Shown here: piece after piece, positions 6,440-24,469 of the stretch
Position numbering within the stretch: the first letter of the stretch is position 1
Layout: each line of letters starts with the position of its first letter
Assembly: GCF_014297445.1 (NCBI RefSeq)
Contig: NZ_JACORU010000003.1
Location: forward strand, 124,001-188,000
Source of the DNA: Ramlibacter albus
GTDB taxonomy: Bacteria; Pseudomonadota; Gammaproteobacteria; Burkholderiales; Burkholderiaceae_C
DNA length: 64,000 nt
Direction: 5' to 3'
Position numbers and translations under genes: made by a program
The notes under the pieces: generated by a model
Database searches by the model: none
Told to the model about the DNA's origin: nothing
What the model saw: the letters and a program-made list of their open reading frames with translations, nothing else

Positions 6440-7656
6440 GGTTGCGAGGCGTCCTTGACGATGCCGCGCTGCTTGAGCTCGGCGACTTGGGCGTCGGTCA
6501 GGCCGATCTCGCGCAGGACGCTGTCGGTGTCCTGCCCGAGCTTCGGTGCGTTGCGCCGATGGCCGCCCGGCGTGAGCGAGAGCTTGGGCACGATGCCGGG
6601 CACGGTGAGCTGGCTGCCGTCGTCCATGGTCACCTGCTGCAGCATGCCGCGCGCGGCGTAGTGCGGGTCGGCGGCGATGTCGGCCACGGTGTAGATCCGG
6701 CCGGCCGGCACGGAAGCGGCATCCAGCGCGGCGAGCACCTCGTCGACGCTGCGCGTCTTCGTCCACTCGCCGATCGCGGCATCGATCTCCTCGACGCGCT
6801 TGACGCGGCCGGCGTTGTCCGCGAGCGCGGGGTCGGCGGCGAGGTCGTTGCGGCCGATCACGCCCATCAGGCGCTTGAAGATGCTGTCGCCGTTGCCGGC
6901 GACCAGCGCATACCCGCCGTCGTTGCACAGGTACGCATTGCTGGGTGCGATGCCCGGCAGCGCGCTGCCCGCCGGGCCGCGCACCGCGCCGAACGCGCTG
7001 TACTCCGGCAACAGGCTTTCCATGCAGTTGAACACCGACTCGTAGAGGGCCACGTCGATCACCTGCCCCTGCCCCGTGCGGTGGCGGTGCTGCAGCGCGA
7101 GCAGGATGCCGATCACGCCATGCAGCGCGGCCAGCGTGTCGCCGATGCTCACGCCCACGCGCACCGGCACGCGGCCGGGCTCGGCGGTGAGGTGGCGCAG
7201 GCCCCCCATCGCTTCACCGACGACGCCGAAACCGGGCCGGTCGCGATACGGCCCCGTCTGCCCATAGCCGCTGATGCGCAGCACGATGAGGCGCGGGTTC
7301 AGCGCCTGCAACGCTTCCGGCCCGAGCCCCCAGCCTTCCATCGCGCCGGGGCGGAAGTTCTCGATCAGCACGTCCGCTTCTGCCGCGAGCTTGCGCACGA
7401 TGTCCTGCGCCTGCTTGTCCTTCAGGTCCAGCGCGAGGGAGCGCTTGTTGCGCGCCTGCACCTGCCACCACACGGACGTGCCGTCCTTGATCAGCCGCCA
7501 GTTGCGCAGCGGGTCGCCGGCACCCGGCGGCTCGATCTTGACAACGTCGGCGCCGAAGTCGGCGAGCGTCTTGGCCGCGAACGGCCCGGCGATGAGCTGC
7601 CCGAGCTCGACAACCTTGAGGCCGGCCAGCGCGGACGGGGGGAGGGTCGTTTCCAT
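6436..7656 (-). CDS. CaiB/BaiF (class III) CoA-transferase
   Basis: A 406-residue enzyme of the CaiB/BaiF family. N-terminal LKVVELGQLIAGPFAAKTLADFGADVVKIEPP and the segment GVSIGDTLAALHG, whose Asp is the expected acyl-anhydride-forming residue, are clear. It transfers CoA between acids in the cytoplasm. ATG at 7656 gives METTLPP; an in-frame start at 7674 would add six residues, and neither has a convincing Shine-Dalgarno. It lies 33 bases after a LysR gene and overlaps the HMG-CoA lyase by ATGA, so LysR, CoA-transferase, lyase and binding protein likely form a catabolic unit. Confidence 0.92.
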   Translation of the reverse strand: METTLPPSALAGLKVVELGQLIAGPFAAKTLADFGADVVKIEPPGAGDPLRNWRLIKDGTSVWWQVQARNKRSLALDLKDKQAQDIVRKLAAEADVLIENFRPGAMEGWGLGPEALQALNPRLIVLRISGYGQTGPYRDRPGFGVVGEAMGGLRHLTAEPGRVPVRVGVSIGDTLAALHGVIGILLALQHRHRTGQGQVIDVALYESVFNCMESLLPEYSAFGAVRGPAGSALPGIAPSNAYLCNDGGYALVAGNGDSIFKRLMGVIGRNDLAADPALADNAGRVKRVEEIDAAIGEWTKTRSVDEVLAALDAASVPAGRIYTVADIAADPHYAARGMLQQVTMDDGSQLTVPGIVPKLSLTPGGHRRNAPKLGQDTDSVLREIGLTDAQVAELKQRGIVKDASQP

Positions 7657-15906: not shown

Positions 15907-17006
15907 TGGCCGAGGCGATCGACAGCCACTTTTCCGCCAGTTACGCCGAAGCCCGCAGCAAGTTCCTCGCCGCCGTGCGCGAGCGCTCCATTCCCGTGGA
16001 GTCGCTGGTGCATCCCGAAAAGGGGCGGGACGGCGAGGAGCTCGCAATGGACGTCGCGCGCGAGGGCGACCCCAATGCGCAGCGCGTGCTCATCCTCTCC
16101 AGCGGCTGCCACGGCGTGGAAGGCTACTGCGGCAGCGGGGTACAACTTGCGACGCTGCACGACGAGGAACCGCGCCGCCGCGCCCGCGAAGCCGGCGTGG
16201 CGCTGCTCTACATCCACGCGCTGAATCCCTACGGCTTCTCGCACGTGCGGCGTGTGACGCACGAGAACGTGGACATCAACCGCAACTTCCACGATTTCTC
16301 CAGGCCCTTGCCCCGCAACCCGGCGTACGCGGAGATCCACCCGTGGCTCGTGCCTGCGCAGTGGCCGCCCACGCAGGAGAACGAAGCGGCCTTGATGAAG
16401 TTCGTGGCCGAACGCGGCCAGGCCGCCTACCAGGCCGCGGTGAGCGGCGGGCAGCACGAGTTCCCCGACGGTCTTTTCTTCGGCGGGACCGCGCCCACGT
16501 GGAGCAACCGCCAGCTGCGCGAAGTGCTGCGCGCGCACGGCCGCCGCGCCGCGCGCATCGCGTGGATCGACATCCACACGGGCCTGGGGCCCAGCGGCGT
16601 CGGCGAGCGGATCTACGCCGGCGTGGACGACGCAGCAACTGTCGCTCGTGCGCGCAAGTGGTGGGACGGCGGCGGCCGCACGCCGGTTACTTCGATCTTC
16701 GACGGCTCGTCCACGTCCGCCTTCCTCACCGGCCTCATGTGGAACTCGGTCTACGACGAGTGCCCGCAGTCCGAGTACACCGGCATCGCGATGGAATACG
16801 GCACGGTGCCCGTGATGCAGACGGTGAACGCGCTGCGCGCCGAGCAATGGCTGCACACGCACCCAGGCGCACCGCCGGAGATAGCGCGGCAGATCAAGCA
16901 GCAGATGATGGACGCGTTCTACACCGACACGCACGAGTGGAAAGAAGCGGTGCTCGTGCAGGCGCGCGAGGCGTTGCTGCAGGCGATCGAAGGGCTGGCC
17001 GCCTGA
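15906..17006 (+). CDS. M14-like zinc carboxypeptidase family protein (DUF2817)
   Basis: A 366-residue protein of the M14-related DUF2817 group. The zinc-binding pair is in SSGCHGVEGYCGSG (HxxE), the third His in WIDIHTGLGPSG, and NVDINRNFHDF matches the M14 substrate-binding NPDGxxxxxR-like region. It should remove or cleave C-terminal residues from a small peptide or amide, but the true substrate is not known. No signal peptide. It is coupled to the upstream amidohydrolase (TGATG) and its TGA is immediately followed by the convergent coaX stop, the two making TGATCA. Confidence 0.82.
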   Translation: MAEAIDSHFSASYAEARSKFLAAVRERSIPVESLVHPEKGRDGEELAMDVAREGDPNAQRVLILSSGCHGVEGYCGSGVQLATLHDEEPRRRAREAGVALLYIHALNPYGFSHVRRVTHENVDINRNFHDFSRPLPRNPAYAEIHPWLVPAQWPPTQENEAALMKFVAERGQAAYQAAVSGGQHEFPDGLFFGGTAPTWSNRQLREVLRAHGRRAARIAWIDIHTGLGPSGVGERIYAGVDDAATVARARKWWDGGGRTPVTSIFDGSSTSAFLTGLMWNSVYDECPQSEYTGIAMEYGTVPVMQTVNALRAEQWLHTHPGAPPEIARQIKQQMMDAFYTDTHEWKEAVLVQAREALLQAIEGLAA

Positions 17007-17780
17007 TCAGGTGGGCCAGCGGTGCTGCGCTATCTCCAGCAGCCCGTCGAGGATCAGGCTCTCCACCAGCTCGAAGCGCTCCGCCAGGTGCGGCGCCATC
17101 TTCCAGCCCGCGCCGCCGGTGAGGAAGCACACCGGGTCCTGCCCGCTCCTGCTTCGCATGTGCTGCACCATGCGCTCGATCGCGCCCGCGATGGCGAAGG
17201 TGCCGCCGCTCGTGAGCGCATCGCTCGTGTTGGTGGGGAACTCGCGCACGTCACCCGTGGGCACGTGCAGGCCGGCGGTGCCGGACTCCAGCGCGCGCAG
17301 CATGATGCCGTGGCCGGGCAGGATGAAGCCGCCCAGGAAGCGGCCCTGCGGATCGACGGCCTCGACGGTGACCGCCGTGCCGATCATCGCCAGCACCATC
17401 GGCCGCGGCGGCTCCTTGCGCGCCTGCAGGCGGTGCCATGCGCCGATCATCGCGACCCAGCGGTCCGCGCCGAGCCGCGTGGGGTGGTCGTAGCCGTTGG
17501 TGAGGCCCGCCTCCGCGGCGCTGGAGACGACCCAGTGCGCGGGCACGTCCCACAGCTCCTCCATCTGCTCCTCGACGCGGCGCTTCACTGCGTCGGCGGC
17601 GACCGAGCAGCCCAGCATGCGCTGCGGCGCGCTGAACGCCTGCCAAGGACCATCGGAGAGCTTGTCGATGTTCTCGAGGAATTCGGCGCCGTGCGCCAGC
17701 ATGGGCGCATGCGGCCGGCCGGCTTCGTACAGCGCCCACTTAAGGCGCGTGTTGCCGACGTCGATGGCCAGGAAGGTCAT
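17007..17780 (-). CDS. coaX: Type III pantothenate kinase
   Basis: A 257-residue ASKHA-fold kinase: phosphate-binding loop [16 protein letters not shown] at the N-terminus, [11 protein letters not shown] with the catalytic Asp, [10 protein letters not shown] and the [12 protein letters not shown] segment. It phosphorylates pantothenate in the first step of CoA synthesis. In most family members the GTATT(V/I)DxVD position has Asp where this protein has Glu in TVEAVD, a mild variation. Start at ATG 17780; 18 more in-frame codons upstream are ignored because they are not family-like. It lies downstream of a coiled-coil gene (16-base gap). Confidence 0.93.
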
Positions 17781-17796
17781 GGTGGCGCGACCGCCG

Positions 17797-18738
17797 CTAC
17801 ATCGCGGCGCGCAGGTGCTCGGCGAGGGCCGCAACGCCCTCGGCCTGCGACTTCTCGGCTTCGCGCAACTGGCCGCAGTCCGCGATGGCCTCGCCCAGGT
17901 GCTGCTTGAGCACGCGCTGCGCTTCCTGCGGGCCCTCGAGGGCAGGCGCTGGCGAGCTGCCTTCGCCGGCCGCGGCGGCGACGGGCGACATGCGTGCCTG
18001 CCACTCCTTCACGTCACCGGCGATGCGCTGCTGCAGAGACTGCACGAGCGCGAGCCGCCGCGCCGCGGTGGCCTGCACCGCCTGGCGTGCCTGCTGCGCG
18101 GCGCTGCTCGCGGCGCGCAGGAGCTTCAGGCGGGCGACCAGCAGTTCGCAGCGCGCGGCGTCTTCCTTGACCTGCTGCAGCTTCTCCTCGTCGCCGCCGG
18201 CCTCGGCCTGGCGCGTCTTGAGCTGGCCGCGCATGTCCTGCAGCCAGCGCGCGCCCTGGTCGATGATCTTCTCCAGGCCGTTGGTCTCGACCTCGAACTC
18301 CACCAGCGCGCGGTCGGCCGCCGCGGCCTGTGCCTGCTGGTGCGTGGCGAGCTTCTTCGCCTGCACGCTCACGCGCTCGGCCGCCTCGAGGACCTGCTCG
18401 TACTGCCGCGCGAATTCCGCGCCGGCGGTCTTGCCCTTGCCGGTCATGCGCGCGAAGAGGCCCTTGTTCTGGCCGAGCAGGGAAAAGTCGAGGCGGTCGA
18501 GCGCCGTGCCCGCTTCGGCGAGGCTGTCGGTGCAGCCCTGCAGGTCGCCGCCGCCGGGCTGCGCCTCGAACTGCGCGCGCAGCTCCATCAGGCGGGCCAC
18601 GTGCACGGCACCGGCGTCGCTCGCCATCTTGTCGAGCCATGCCGCCGGGGTGGCCGCGGGCTTGGGCTTGGACTGCGCCAGCTGCGCCAGCTTCGCCGGC
18701 GTCATGAGGGAGGCAGTGCGGTCGGCATCGTCGCTCAT
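17797..18738 (-). CDS. Coiled-coil protein, weakly TelA-like
   Basis: A 313-residue, Ala/Gln/Glu/Lys-rich protein predicted to be almost entirely helical with long coiled coils (about residues 120-290). The segment around residues 78-115, with [21 protein letters not shown] followed by [13 protein letters not shown], recalls the N-terminal part of TelA-type toxic-anion-resistance proteins (LDP...GFLGKLFGK...RY), but the resemblance is by eye. There are no membrane segments or signal peptide. It sits between coaX and a LuxR-type regulator on the same strand. Function unknown. Confidence 0.6.
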
Positions 18739-18770
18739 GGCGGAGCAATATACCCCTTCCGGGGTGGCGA

Positions 18771-19439
18771 TCAAATCGCCCCGAGCCAGCAGGCGCGCTG
18801 GATGGCGGCCATCTTGTTGTCCACGCGCAGCTTGTTCATCGCGTTGGAGATGTGGTAGTTGATCGTGCGTTCGGAGCAGCGCAGCCTCTGCGCGCTCTCC
18901 TTGGCGGTCCTGCCTTCGAAGGCGAGCATGAGGCACTCGCGCTCGCGCGGGCTGAGCATCGAACGCGCCGTGGCGATCGAGCGCCTCACCAGCGGCCAGA
19001 TGTTCATCGCGGACCACACGATCGACGCGGCCTCGGCGCGGTCGGTGAGCTCGCGCGGGCTGAACATGAAGCACTCGAACGCGCGGCCCACCGGCAGCGG
19101 GAACTCCACGCGCACGACGGTCTGGAAGCCGTGCGCGAGCCACAACTGGCGCCAGCGGCTCGTGTCGAGGCTGTCCGACTTGGCGATGTGCTGCCACGCG
19201 ACCAGGGGCGCGTCGGACGCGCGCCACGGCGCGCCGAAGTCGTGGCTGTCGGCCAGTGCCTTCGCGGCGTCGGCGAGCAGCGGCGGATGCACCGCCACCA
19301 CCTGCCTGTCCTCCACGCCGCCGAAGGGATCGGGCCCGAGGACCACGACCGCTTCCACGGAAAACTCGCGCAATGCACTCAACCAGTCGCTGAGCAGCCC
19401 GTCCAGGCTCACACTGTCAAAGTTAACAGGTAGATGCAT
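18771..19439 (-). CDS. LuxR-family transcriptional regulator (possible LuxR solo)
   Basis: A 222-residue regulator with a C-terminal LuxR/GerE helix-turn-helix (about residues 158-220): LSPRERECLMLAFEGRTAKE, then RLRCSERTINYHISNAMNKL. The N-terminal 150 residues have the size of an autoinducer-binding domain, but the usual W-x3-Y...D-P signature of acyl-homoserine-lactone receptors is not evident, so its ligand may be different. No luxI is in the window. It is divergent from a response regulator gene; 18-base dyads resembling lux boxes occur inside its own 5' end (19413-19430) and after the response regulator (20601-20618). Start ATG 19439. Confidence 0.85.
   Translation of the reverse strand: MHLPVNFDSVSLDGLLSDWLSALREFSVEAVVVLGPDPFGGVEDRQVVAVHPPLLADAAKALADSHDFGAPWRASDAPLVAWQHIAKSDSLDTSRWRQLWLAHGFQTVVRVEFPLPVGRAFECFMFSPRELTDRAEAASIVWSAMNIWPLVRRSIATARSMLSPRERECLMLAFEGRTAKESAQRLRCSERTINYHISNAMNKLRVDNKMAAIQRACWLGAI
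19413..19430. promoter_or_regulatory. Lux-box-like dyad in the luxR 5' end
   Basis: ACTGTCAAAGTTAACAGG carries CTGT...ACAG arms, and 12 of the 16 bases of its core fit an inverted repeat. It matches the better dyad at 20601-20618 in CTGTCA and ACAGG with the same 18-base length. It lies within codons 4-9 of the LuxR-type gene, where a bound regulator could block its own transcription. Weak on its own. Confidence 0.35.
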
Positions 19440-19538
19440 CGACGGTTATCGAAAGAACCGGGACAATAGCATGGACCCATGCATCGACAGCCGCGTGCGC
19501 ACGCAGCGACCGGTTGGTCTGAGGCACCTCCCCATTCC

Positions 19539-20516
19539 ATGAGCTTCCCCCTCTTTCATCGCCCCGGCACCCTCGTCTTCCTCGACGACGACCCGGACTA
19601 CCTCGAGATGCTCGCGATGGTGCTGCCGCGCCAGTGGCACGTGAAGCTGTTCCAGCGCCCGTCCGCATGCATCTCCTACCTGCAGCAGGAGCCCCCGTTC
19701 TGGGAGGCCGATGCGTGGAACCAGCACGAGCTGATCGAGCGCTGGCGCGAGGGCAAGCCGCTCGTGCCGCAGGTGCTCGCGTACTGGTCCAAGTACACCG
19801 AGCGCTACGCGCTCACGCGCGTGTGCGTGGTGGACTATTCGATGCCGGGCATGGACGGCCTGCAGGTGCTCGGCGAGCTGGTGGACTGGCCCGGCTCGCG
19901 CGTGCTGCTCACGGGGCAGGCGGACGAACAGGTCGCGGTGCGCGCGTTCAACCGCGGGCTCATCGACCAGTTCATCCCCAAGCAGACGCCCGACATCTCG
20001 CGCCGCCTGATCGAGGCGGTGGAGCACCTGCTCACGACCCCGCACGCGCGGCATGCGCAGATCTGGCGCGCGACGCTGAAACCGGAGCACAACGCGCTGC
20101 TTCGCACGACGGCCGTCGCCGACGAGCTCGCGGCCTTCGTGGGCAAGCGCTGGGTGGAGCACGTCGTGCTCGGCGAGCCGTTCGGCGTGCTCGGGATGGA
20201 CAGCGCCGGCAACGTCGGCTGGCTGCAGCTGGAGACGGGCGACGGGCTGGTTGCGCAGGCGGAGCTCGCGCAGCTGGAGGGGCTGGACGCGGAGGCGATC
20301 GAGGACATCCGCGCCGGCCGCCGCCTGACAAGCATCGAGCTGCGGCAGGCGCTCGGCGGCGCGGGCGAGATCGAACTCGCCACCGCGTTCCGGGTGACCA
20401 AGGACGCGAACCTGTACGGCGCCGTCTTCGCGCTCGACCCGCAGCACTGCCCCGACCCGAGCAGCAGCTACGCGAACTGGCTCGCGCGGCAGGAGAAGCG
20501 GCAGGTCCAGCCCTGA
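19539..20516 (+). CDS. Response regulator with expanded receiver domain and unknown output domain
   Basis: A 325-residue protein. An intact receiver is visible: acidic cluster D16-D18 in VFLDDDPDY, phosphoacceptor D99 in CVVDYSMPGMDG, T125 in LLTGQAD and K148 in FIPKQ. The spacing from the acidic cluster to D99 is about 82 residues, against about 44 in CheY, so some 40 extra residues (near 50-90, Trp-rich) are inserted. Residues 160-325 show no known DNA-binding or enzymatic motif. ATG 19539 is chosen because MSFPLF leads straight into the receiver; ATG 19479 would add 20 non-conserved residues. Divergent from the LuxR-type gene; no histidine kinase is nearby. Confidence 0.75.
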   Translation: MSFPLFHRPGTLVFLDDDPDYLEMLAMVLPRQWHVKLFQRPSACISYLQQEPPFWEADAWNQHELIERWREGKPLVPQVLAYWSKYTERYALTRVCVVDYSMPGMDGLQVLGELVDWPGSRVLLTGQADEQVAVRAFNRGLIDQFIPKQTPDISRRLIEAVEHLLTTPHARHAQIWRATLKPEHNALLRTTAVADELAAFVGKRWVEHVVLGEPFGVLGMDSAGNVGWLQLETGDGLVAQAELAQLEGLDAEAIEDIRAGRRLTSIELRQALGGAGEIELATAFRVTKDANLYGAVFALDPQHCPDPSSSYANWLARQEKRQVQP

Positions 20517-20600
20517 CCGCCGGCGTTCACGCATCCGTCCCCTCCCGGTGTGGTTCCAGACCGCATTGGAGGCGCAAACGTGCGCCGGCGCTGCACGCAC

Positions 20601-20618
20601 CCTGTCAGGTCTGACAGG
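20601..20618. promoter_or_regulatory. Perfect lux-box-like dyad
   Basis: CCTGTCAGGTCTGACAGG is a perfect inverted repeat with eight-base arms and a two-base centre, the size and CTG...CAG character of LuxR-type operator sites. It lies between the convergent stops of the response regulator and secA. With a two-base centre and no T-run on either side it makes a poor intrinsic terminator. Binding by the nearby LuxR-type protein is inference. Confidence 0.45.
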
Positions 20619-20631
20619 TCATCGAAAGTCC

Positions 20632-23415
<2,784 letters not shown>

Positions 23416-23518
23416 GCGCGGTGCGGCCCTGCGGGGCAGCGCAATCCTTTTGTTCGTCGTGAGGACATGGGGGCCCCGGAGCCGTTTGCAACGGCCGGCG
23501 CACCCAAAGCGAGGGATT

Positions 23519-24469
23519 TTACCTGTGCAGGCCGGCCGGCGTGGCCTGCGCCACCGGGGGCATGTTCTGCCCGGCCGCCAGGAATTTCTGCGGGTCCTGC
23601 GGCACGCCCTGCACCAGCACCTCGAAGTGCAGGTGCGGCCCGGTCGAGCGGCCCGTGGTGCCCACCTCGGCGATCTTCTGGCCGCGCTTGATGAGGTCGC
23701 CCTTCCTGACGAGCAGCTTCGATGCGTGGGCGTAGCGCGTGACGAGGTCGTTGCCGTGGTCCACCTCGACCATGTTGCCGTAGGCGGGGTGCACTTCGGA
23801 GGTGACCACCACGCCGCCGGCCGCCGAATGGATCGCCGTGCCGACGTCGGCCTGGAAGTCCAGGCCGGTGTGCAAGGCCGAGCGGCCGGTGAACGGGTCG
23901 ATGCGCCAGCCGAAGGACGAGCCGAGGTTGCCCGATTGGACCGGCTGCTGCGTGGGCACCATCATCTTGCGGATCTTCGCGTCGAAGAGGCGGGACTCCA
24001 TCACCGTGAGCAGGTCGGCGCGGCTGGCAGTGAGTTCGTCGAGGTCGGCCAGCGTCTTCTGCAGTTCTTCCAGGGTGAGCGGGCGGCCTTCCACGAGGGC
24101 GCCGCCGCGGCCGGCGACCGCGCGGATTTCGGCGGGGTTGACGCCCGCGAGGCCAGACACGCGCTCGCCGAGCGCTTCGAGCTGGACCATCTTGGCCTGC
24201 ATCTCGCCGAGCTTGCGCGCCATGGCGTCGAGGTTCTCGCGCATGAACCGGTCGCGCTGCTCGAACTCGTCCTTGACGACCAGGCGCAGCATGCTGCCCA
24301 CCACCGGCCAGCCTTCGCGCGCGCCCTTGAGGAACACCCAGTGGTAGAGGCCCGCCGCGCAGAGCATCAGCGCGAACGACAGCCCGACGAGGGCGAGCAC
24401 GAGCTTGGTGCCGCTCAGGTGGATCGCGCGGCTCTTGGCGAGCCACGCGTCCGTGATAATGAAGTGCAC
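23519..24469 (-). CDS. M23-family peptidoglycan metallopeptidase, membrane-anchored
   Basis: A 316-residue protein with one N-terminal membrane segment (about residues 22-46, [20 protein letters not shown]), a coiled-coil region (about 70-160) and a C-terminal LytM domain: [21 protein letters not shown] with the first zinc ligands and [16 protein letters not shown] with the HxH motif. It therefore cuts peptidoglycan cross-links from the periplasmic face, or activates an amidase. The start is GTG at 24469. It is divergent from a DciA-like gene with 19 bases between starts, and upstream of secA. Confidence 0.93.

Follow-up and report, generated by a model that had tools for sequence, protein, structure and literature searches.

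Lux-box-like dyads beside LuxR-type and LqsR-like regulator genes in Ramlibacter albus: a likely output half of an alpha-hydroxyketone quorum-sensing locus

What do two lux-box-like dyads serve at a locus of Ramlibacter albus that carries a LuxR-type regulator and a response regulator, and no luxI? The original prediction, made from the letters of a 64,000-nucleotide stretch of contig NZ_JACORU010000003.1 (the window), was a LuxR solo with local autoregulation. Our analysis makes it highly probable that the dyads are operators of the LuxR-type protein, and that an ancestral alpha-hydroxyketone (AHK) locus has here lost its kinase and synthase while retaining the output half. As far as sequence can tell, the dyads hold as genuine elements owing to comparison between genomes, not to their palindromy.

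The locus and its regulators

Both 18-mers were read from the sequence at the coordinates originally given (Table 1); they bracket the response regulator gene, the second lying inside the LuxR-type gene, as had been proposed. Dyad 1, which lies between the stop codons at which the response regulator gene and secA converge, is indeed a perfect inverted repeat with eight-base arms (8+2+8); dyad 2 pairs at only 6 of 9 positions. The two are versions of one lux-box-like motif, CTGTCAR-NN-YTGACAG (CTG-N10-CAG), whose form and position upstream of genes fit a presumed lux-box operator.

Table 1. Features of the locus (window coordinates)
Feature	Position	Strand	Description
Dyad 1	20601..20618	.	Box CCTGTCAGGTCTGACAGG; in relatives, the cqsA promoter box, between the secA stop and the cqsA start
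Dyad 2	19413..19430	.	Box within luxR codons 4-9; minus strand CCTGTTAACTTTGACAGT; DNA-level constraint across 73 orthologues
LuxR-type regulator	18771..19439	-	222 aa; GerE HTH; N-domain with a predicted autoinducer-binding fold; presumed box binder
LqsR-like response regulator	19539..20516	+	325 aa; receiver domain; without a recognised DNA-binding domain
Scar	19440..19538	.	In most relatives the interval holds a CqsS-like histidine kinase gene of ~1.4 kb
Scar	20517..20631	.	In most relatives, a cqsA/lqsA-type synthase gene of ~1.3 kb on the minus strand; here its promoter alone is left
Relic -10-like element TCCAAT	20565..20570	-	CCAAT starts 32 nt past dyad 1; intact cqsA promoters have TCAAT
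secA	20632..23415	-	Syntenic landmark, outside the system

The LuxR-type identity assigned to the 222-aa protein was borne out by its C-terminal GerE HTH domain (PF00196, 60.5 bits), and a predicted structure (pLDDT 84.5) suggests the fold of LuxR quorum receptors. The model aligns with QscR, RhlR, SdiA and TraR over both domains (VIA Z about 12-13.5, rmsd 6-7.4 Å, about 200 residues), with whole-chain TM-scores of only 0.4-0.5, and its N-domain aligns with the CepR2 LBD (Z 11.9, 3.2 Å, 147 residues, 6% identity). No Pfam match to PF03472 was found in the protein. An autoinducer-receptor fold is predicted, and a shared fold is no proof of a ligand. When the window luxR was compared with those of three intact-locus relatives, dN/dS was 0.12-0.21, versus 0.05-0.07 between intact loci, which suggests a constraint that is weaker yet still purifying; other pairs lacking cqsA gave 0.13 (L027-L029) and 0.05 (L038-L050). 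The response regulator matches PDB 6sy9 (E 9.4e-20 over residues 2-261), an entry described as "Response regulator" that we take to be Legionella LqsR, and the homology spans the receiver and the C-terminal part, as LqsR-family membership demands.

As predicted, no luxI was found in the window, and cqsA is likewise absent. The genome's only luxI-family match lies on another contig, beside its own luxR. The proposal of a LuxR solo therefore stands in that no cognate luxI was found for the LuxR-type protein of the window; it does not stand in that the genome carries a luxI/luxR pair elsewhere and the synthase proper to the locus is of the CqsA/LqsA type. The search for luxI and other synthases likewise turned out otherwise than the original prediction implied: luxI is present on contig C3, and what the locus has lost is its AHK synthase and CqsS-like kinase. 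On the same contig of this genome (L113:7215-10178, G000:C3), luxI and luxR adjoin a further LqsR-like gene, whose product is 42% identical, so that AHL and LqsR components are combined; in another stretch (L114:6427-11699, G000:C3), a CqsS-like kinase and a LuxR-HTH protein accompany a haem-oxygenase-like enzyme and two LqsR-like proteins, of which one scores below the receiver cut-off and the other has no Pfam match.

Loss of synthase and kinase, and conservation of the boxes

Comparison with 79 orthologous loci reveals what is missing. The usual gene order in relatives is luxR (-), kinase (+), regulator (+) and cqsA (-), followed in many by secA (-); a CqsS-like kinase gene (at least 45% identity to the L004 kinase) is present at 73 of the loci and cqsA at 68. 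The L004 synthase scores 562 bits against NF005526 (cut-off 428) and matches the PDB CAI-1 synthase with an E value of 5.5e-98. The distance between luxR and the regulator gene, measurable at 74 of the 79 loci, is 1.3-1.6 kb in 68 and below 200 bp in 6; in the window it is 99 bp, versus about 1.4 kb in relatives. No CqsA/LqsA-type synthase was found in the window or the genome (best NF005526 score 18.7 bits, 0 matches at 1e-10), nor any CqsS/LqsS-type kinase orthologue in the genome (best matches 5.8e-35 and 1.7e-25); across the genus, the kinase yields 27 matches in 26 genomes at 5e-125 or better. Loss-only parsimony, applied to 80 response regulators in a tree with L074 as its root, counts five kinase losses and nine synthase losses (L059 included), the window being a separate loss among intact relatives. 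L059 retains kinase and regulator and has a two-mismatch box at 7083, but neither cqsA nor luxR turned up in the 13 kb examined; the LuxR-type protein is therefore not always the survivor.

The original prediction had named the absence of the dyads from orthologous loci as evidence against it; both are conserved there. For dyad 1, 74 of the 79 loci were usable (L020, L047, L051, L059 and L073 were left out). Among the 65 that carry cqsA, the best box upstream of this gene has 0 mismatches in 46, 1 in 9, 2 in 5, 3 in 4 and 4 in 1, so that 60 of 65 fall within two mismatches; five Polaromonas-type loci have cqsA boxes at 3-4 mismatches only. A box with 0-1 mismatch persists near the secA stop in seven of the nine usable cqsA-less loci, and none was found there in the other two, L018 and L048. 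By comparison, 20 permuted palindromes searched in the same regions of the 74 loci hit a mean of 0.05 loci at up to one mismatch and 1.6 at up to two. All 60 cqsA promoters with a box at up to two mismatches have [TC][CT]AAT 31-33 nt past it, an element that the window retains as CCAAT. Because the box lies upstream of cqsA in relatives and the element at 32 nt is kept, dyad 1 is best read, from these alignments, as a promoter box left behind when the synthase gene was lost and not as a site serving the response regulator gene. One weak sigma-70-like site was detected between 17000 and 24000. In L004 and other cqsA leaders, the sequence from TTCAAT to the start looks by eye able to pair with the ribosome-binding site. 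At L012, L027 and L029, the box is kept near the secA stop though cqsA and the TTCAAT element are gone; a pure cqsA-promoter role fails to explain these three boxes.

Dyad 2 is also under constraint. Of its 18 bases, the 73 orthologues with a visible luxR start retain 14-18 (all 18 in 22 orthologues, 17 in 31, 16 in 12, 15 in 6 and 14 in 2), and the motif has 0 mismatches in 19, 1 in 40, 2 in 13 and 4 in 1, i.e., up to two in 72 of 73. Among 56 full-length genes, the six-codon window at luxR codon 4 ranks 1st of 217 in overall conservation and 2nd of 217 in third-position conservation. Since one dyad lies within luxR itself, the local autoregulation originally suggested is plausible. This copy is in coding DNA, and it could be retained for mRNA reasons (see below).

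The box is no universal mark of AHK loci, since five other lqs-type or luxR-type loci (L213 to L217) show none at up to two mismatches. The genome of L213 has four exact boxes, all elsewhere than at L213, a locus of another family in which an LqsR-like gene lies beside a PF03472-positive LuxR.

Boxes across genomes, a putative small RNA and replacement modules

Scanning the genome with the motif, as the original prediction had suggested, revealed enrichment over control: nine exact sites versus 0 for the reversed control, four further one-mismatch sites (dyad 2 among them), and, with a smaller margin, 26 sites versus 11 at up to two mismatches. Exact sites occur in 33 of 61 genomes, the control yielding one site in all; in a draw of 399 family genomes, 66 have an exact site and 7 a control site. 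A luxR orthologue is detected at E <= 1e-20 in 34 of the 61 genomes. With orthology set at 65% identity or more, 30 of 33 genomes with luxR carry an exact box versus 3 of 28 others (Fisher p 1e-10). The exceptions are G006, G028 and G030, with the orthologue and no exact box; G010 and G018, with an exact box and no orthologue at that identity, whose genomes are 75-76% complete; and G043, with four exact boxes and no close orthologue. We infer that the LuxR-type protein binds the boxes.

The context of 52 boxes (49 exact, 3 with one mismatch) was surveyed in 49 stretches outside the lqs locus, nine of this genome and 40 chosen among the sites listed for other genomes. With a simple gene caller, 51 of the 52 proved intergenic in this selection, and several precede genes. 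Within this genome, the distance by which the box precedes the gene is 67-87 bp for two tandem acyltransferase-SGNH genes, a PhyH-like dioxygenase gene and a gene for an uncharacterised protein, 133 bp for rsmD, and 35 and 261 bp for two more genes; at one mismatch, boxes are found 65-83 bp ahead of a fatty-acid desaturase gene and of uncharacterised genes.

The box upstream of rsmD, or of an rsmD-coaD pair, recurs in 15 stretches, this genome included, and an M16 peptidase gene precedes it where visible (Pfam names were obtained for L132 only). NAAT lies 33 nt past the box in 13 of the 15, matching the spacing at cqsA promoters (44 of 60). In the 14 sequences aligned (L200, without a clear T run, was left out), CTGTCAC comes next, without variation, and then a G+C stem accompanied by a T run. 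For each of the 10 stem pairs, at least one sequence has both bases substituted and still pairs. A putative box-driven small RNA with a covarying terminator thus appears to be encoded at L132:4995-5143 (-) and in 14 other stretches. Rfam gave no match for it at six loci, and only a tRNA on the window. Although the element would be an RNA gene, judging from its sequence, its terminator could instead end the message of the upstream gene. In its logic, the putative small RNA would resemble the Qrr RNAs of Vibrio; in sequence, it does not.

Synthase and sensor have also been exchanged. At L038 and L050, kinase and cqsA are replaced by genes for a haem-oxygenase-like protein, a FeeM-like acyltransferase-like protein, a CqsS-like hybrid kinase and a REC-kinase (both kinases named by similarity), the haem-oxygenase-like gene standing under the old cqsA box. 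In this genome, contig C12 carries the acyltransferase-like gene, preceded by an exact box, with the hybrid kinase and the REC-kinase; the haem-oxygenase-like gene lies apart from this set, on C3. This suggests that the C12 module is where new input might come from. More tentatively, there may exist in the Comamonadaceae an AHK output core (an LqsR-type and a LuxR-type regulator, a lux-box regulon and a small RNA) onto which interchangeable signal and sensor modules fit, and which here would serve the module on the other contig and a different signal; we regard this extension as a possibility that falls short of even chances. An identical A8 run (CTCGAAAAAAAAGAGA) divides the FeeM-like gene, over the Pfam cut-off in L050 only, into two frames in L135:9758-10400 (G000:C12), L050, L038, L174 and L191; this split, found in all five genomes read, may be a conserved frameshift or slippage signal.

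Alternative readings, known systems and significance

Could the dyads be something other than LuxR operators? If they were chance palindromes, two unrelated 18-mers of which one happens to fall in coding sequence, palindromy would be expected at chance level, and it is: the window has four repeats with 8-bp arms and a 2-bp spacer, versus 3.7 +/- 1.8 in 30 shuffles. The shared motif occurs twice at up to two mismatches, against 0.57 expected, and 6 of 100 shuffles reach two. However, because the dyads keep sequence and position across dozens of orthologous loci and are enriched genome-wide (nine exact sites, control 0), chance can practically be dismissed. Neither is dyad 1 at all likely to act as an RNA hairpin, that is, as a bidirectional terminator. 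It does lie between convergent stops and would form a 7-bp stem on both strands, but it lacks a T run, its folding z is only -0.6 and -1.6, a scan of 17000-24000 found no terminator-like site, in relatives the element is found ahead of cqsA, and further copies stand before gene starts. An mRNA role is easier to entertain for the luxR copy, which might be kept for a role in the message, as a small-RNA target or at the start of translation, and not as an operator. Its right half (TTTGACAG) is steadier than its left in the 73 orthologues, and the putative small RNA, with CTGTCAC near its 5' end, could pair with UGACAG. Yet both halves match the intergenic boxes in consensus and spacing, and the pairing, judged by eye, spans only about 6 bp in this genome; we give this reading a modest minority chance.

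Whether the boxes belong to the neighbouring protein is a separate matter. They might instead be bound by some other repressor that recognises palindromes, LexA being the foremost candidate; the motif formally fits its consensus, CTGT-N8-ACAG. The site upstream of lexA in this genome (CTGTTCAAAAATACAG) is, however, five mismatches from the motif, 23 of 24 genomes from other genera of the order have no exact box, box presence follows the luxR orthologue, and no SOS gene appears among the Pfam names of the targets scanned. The exact AT-rich LexA pattern had no match, a result that is uninformative as a test. Given the divergent lexA-upstream site and the way the boxes follow luxR, LexA ownership was set aside as quite improbable. 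Alternatively, the protein may be an autoregulating LuxR solo of the AHL type that senses the AHL of the genome's own luxI, as its predicted autoinducer-receptor fold and the luxI/luxR pair on C3, adjoining another LqsR-like gene, would allow. Against this, the protein has no PF03472 match, its profile alignment to the genome's AHL-type LuxR spans the HTH only, and its conserved neighbours are AHK genes, not luxI. Moreover, the luxI/luxR stretch has no motif match at up to two mismatches, and a looser CTG-N10-CAG-type pattern matches it once, far from the luxI-luxR gap. We therefore consider an AHL solo unlikely, and what survives at the locus looks like the output side of an AHK system.

In the reading that we favor, with operators of the LuxR-type protein and a reduced AHK locus, the box CCTGTCAR-NN-YTGACAGG would be the operator of the regulator encoded at 18771-19439. 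The ancestral locus would have been a complete AHK quorum-sensing system in which the signal, made by a CqsA-type synthase, was sensed by a CqsS-like kinase that acted on the LqsR-like response regulator. The LuxR-type protein would be the DNA-binding output, with control over a regulon, over its own gene and, as feedback, over cqsA. Kinase and synthase have been deleted in this genome; the two regulators, the two boxes and the relic cqsA promoter are still there. Since these persist, together with boxes genome-wide, the output half is probably still working, under another input. The motif, how it is conserved, which genes are missing, the set of boxes and their joint occurrence with luxR are computed results; that the LqsR-like and LuxR-type proteins act together, the direction of control and the nature of the present input are what we infer.

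LuxR solos and their lux boxes are known for the LuxR-family fold (a predicted one in our protein), the CTG-N10-CAG dyad and an autoregulatory position, all reminiscent of this locus; they differ in that the protein described here is linked to AHK, not AHL, genes and has no PF03472 match. With the Lqs, Cqs and Jqs systems of Legionella, Vibrio and Janthinobacterium, the relatives share a cluster of synthase, CqsS/LqsS-type kinase and LqsR-type regulator, whereas the present cluster also includes a LuxR-type protein and a common operator, and has lost kinase and synthase. In Janthinobacterium, jqsA is linked to jqsS, itself flanked by jqsR, and LuxR is nowhere mentioned in that paper (PMC3566124). 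A JAI-1 motif, TTGAN6/7TCAA, is described there upstream of AHK-regulated genes, the synthase gene included (PMC5080296); like our box it is palindromic and precedes AHK-regulated genes, but its sequence and spacing differ, and the excerpted text names no binder. PhcX, an LqsR orthologue kept in Ralstonia after the breakdown of Lqs (PMC10653808), is likewise an LqsR-type regulator that has outlasted the synthase and sensors. PhcX differs in lying beside the phc operon, an arrangement in which phcX/lqsR adjoins phc genes in several genera, Hydrogenophaga among them, and that study has no mention of LuxR and describes no such partner (PMC10653808). A LuxR-type protein and such a box joined to an AHK locus were not found in the titles and abstracts that our searches of open-licence papers listed.

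LqsR-type regulators have no recognised DNA-binding output. A LuxR-type partner with a presumed operator would offer a testable route from AHK signals to promoters in bacteria of soil and water. Synthase and sensor have repeatedly been lost or exchanged where regulator and operators stayed, which may represent a natural experiment in the rewiring of quorum sensing.
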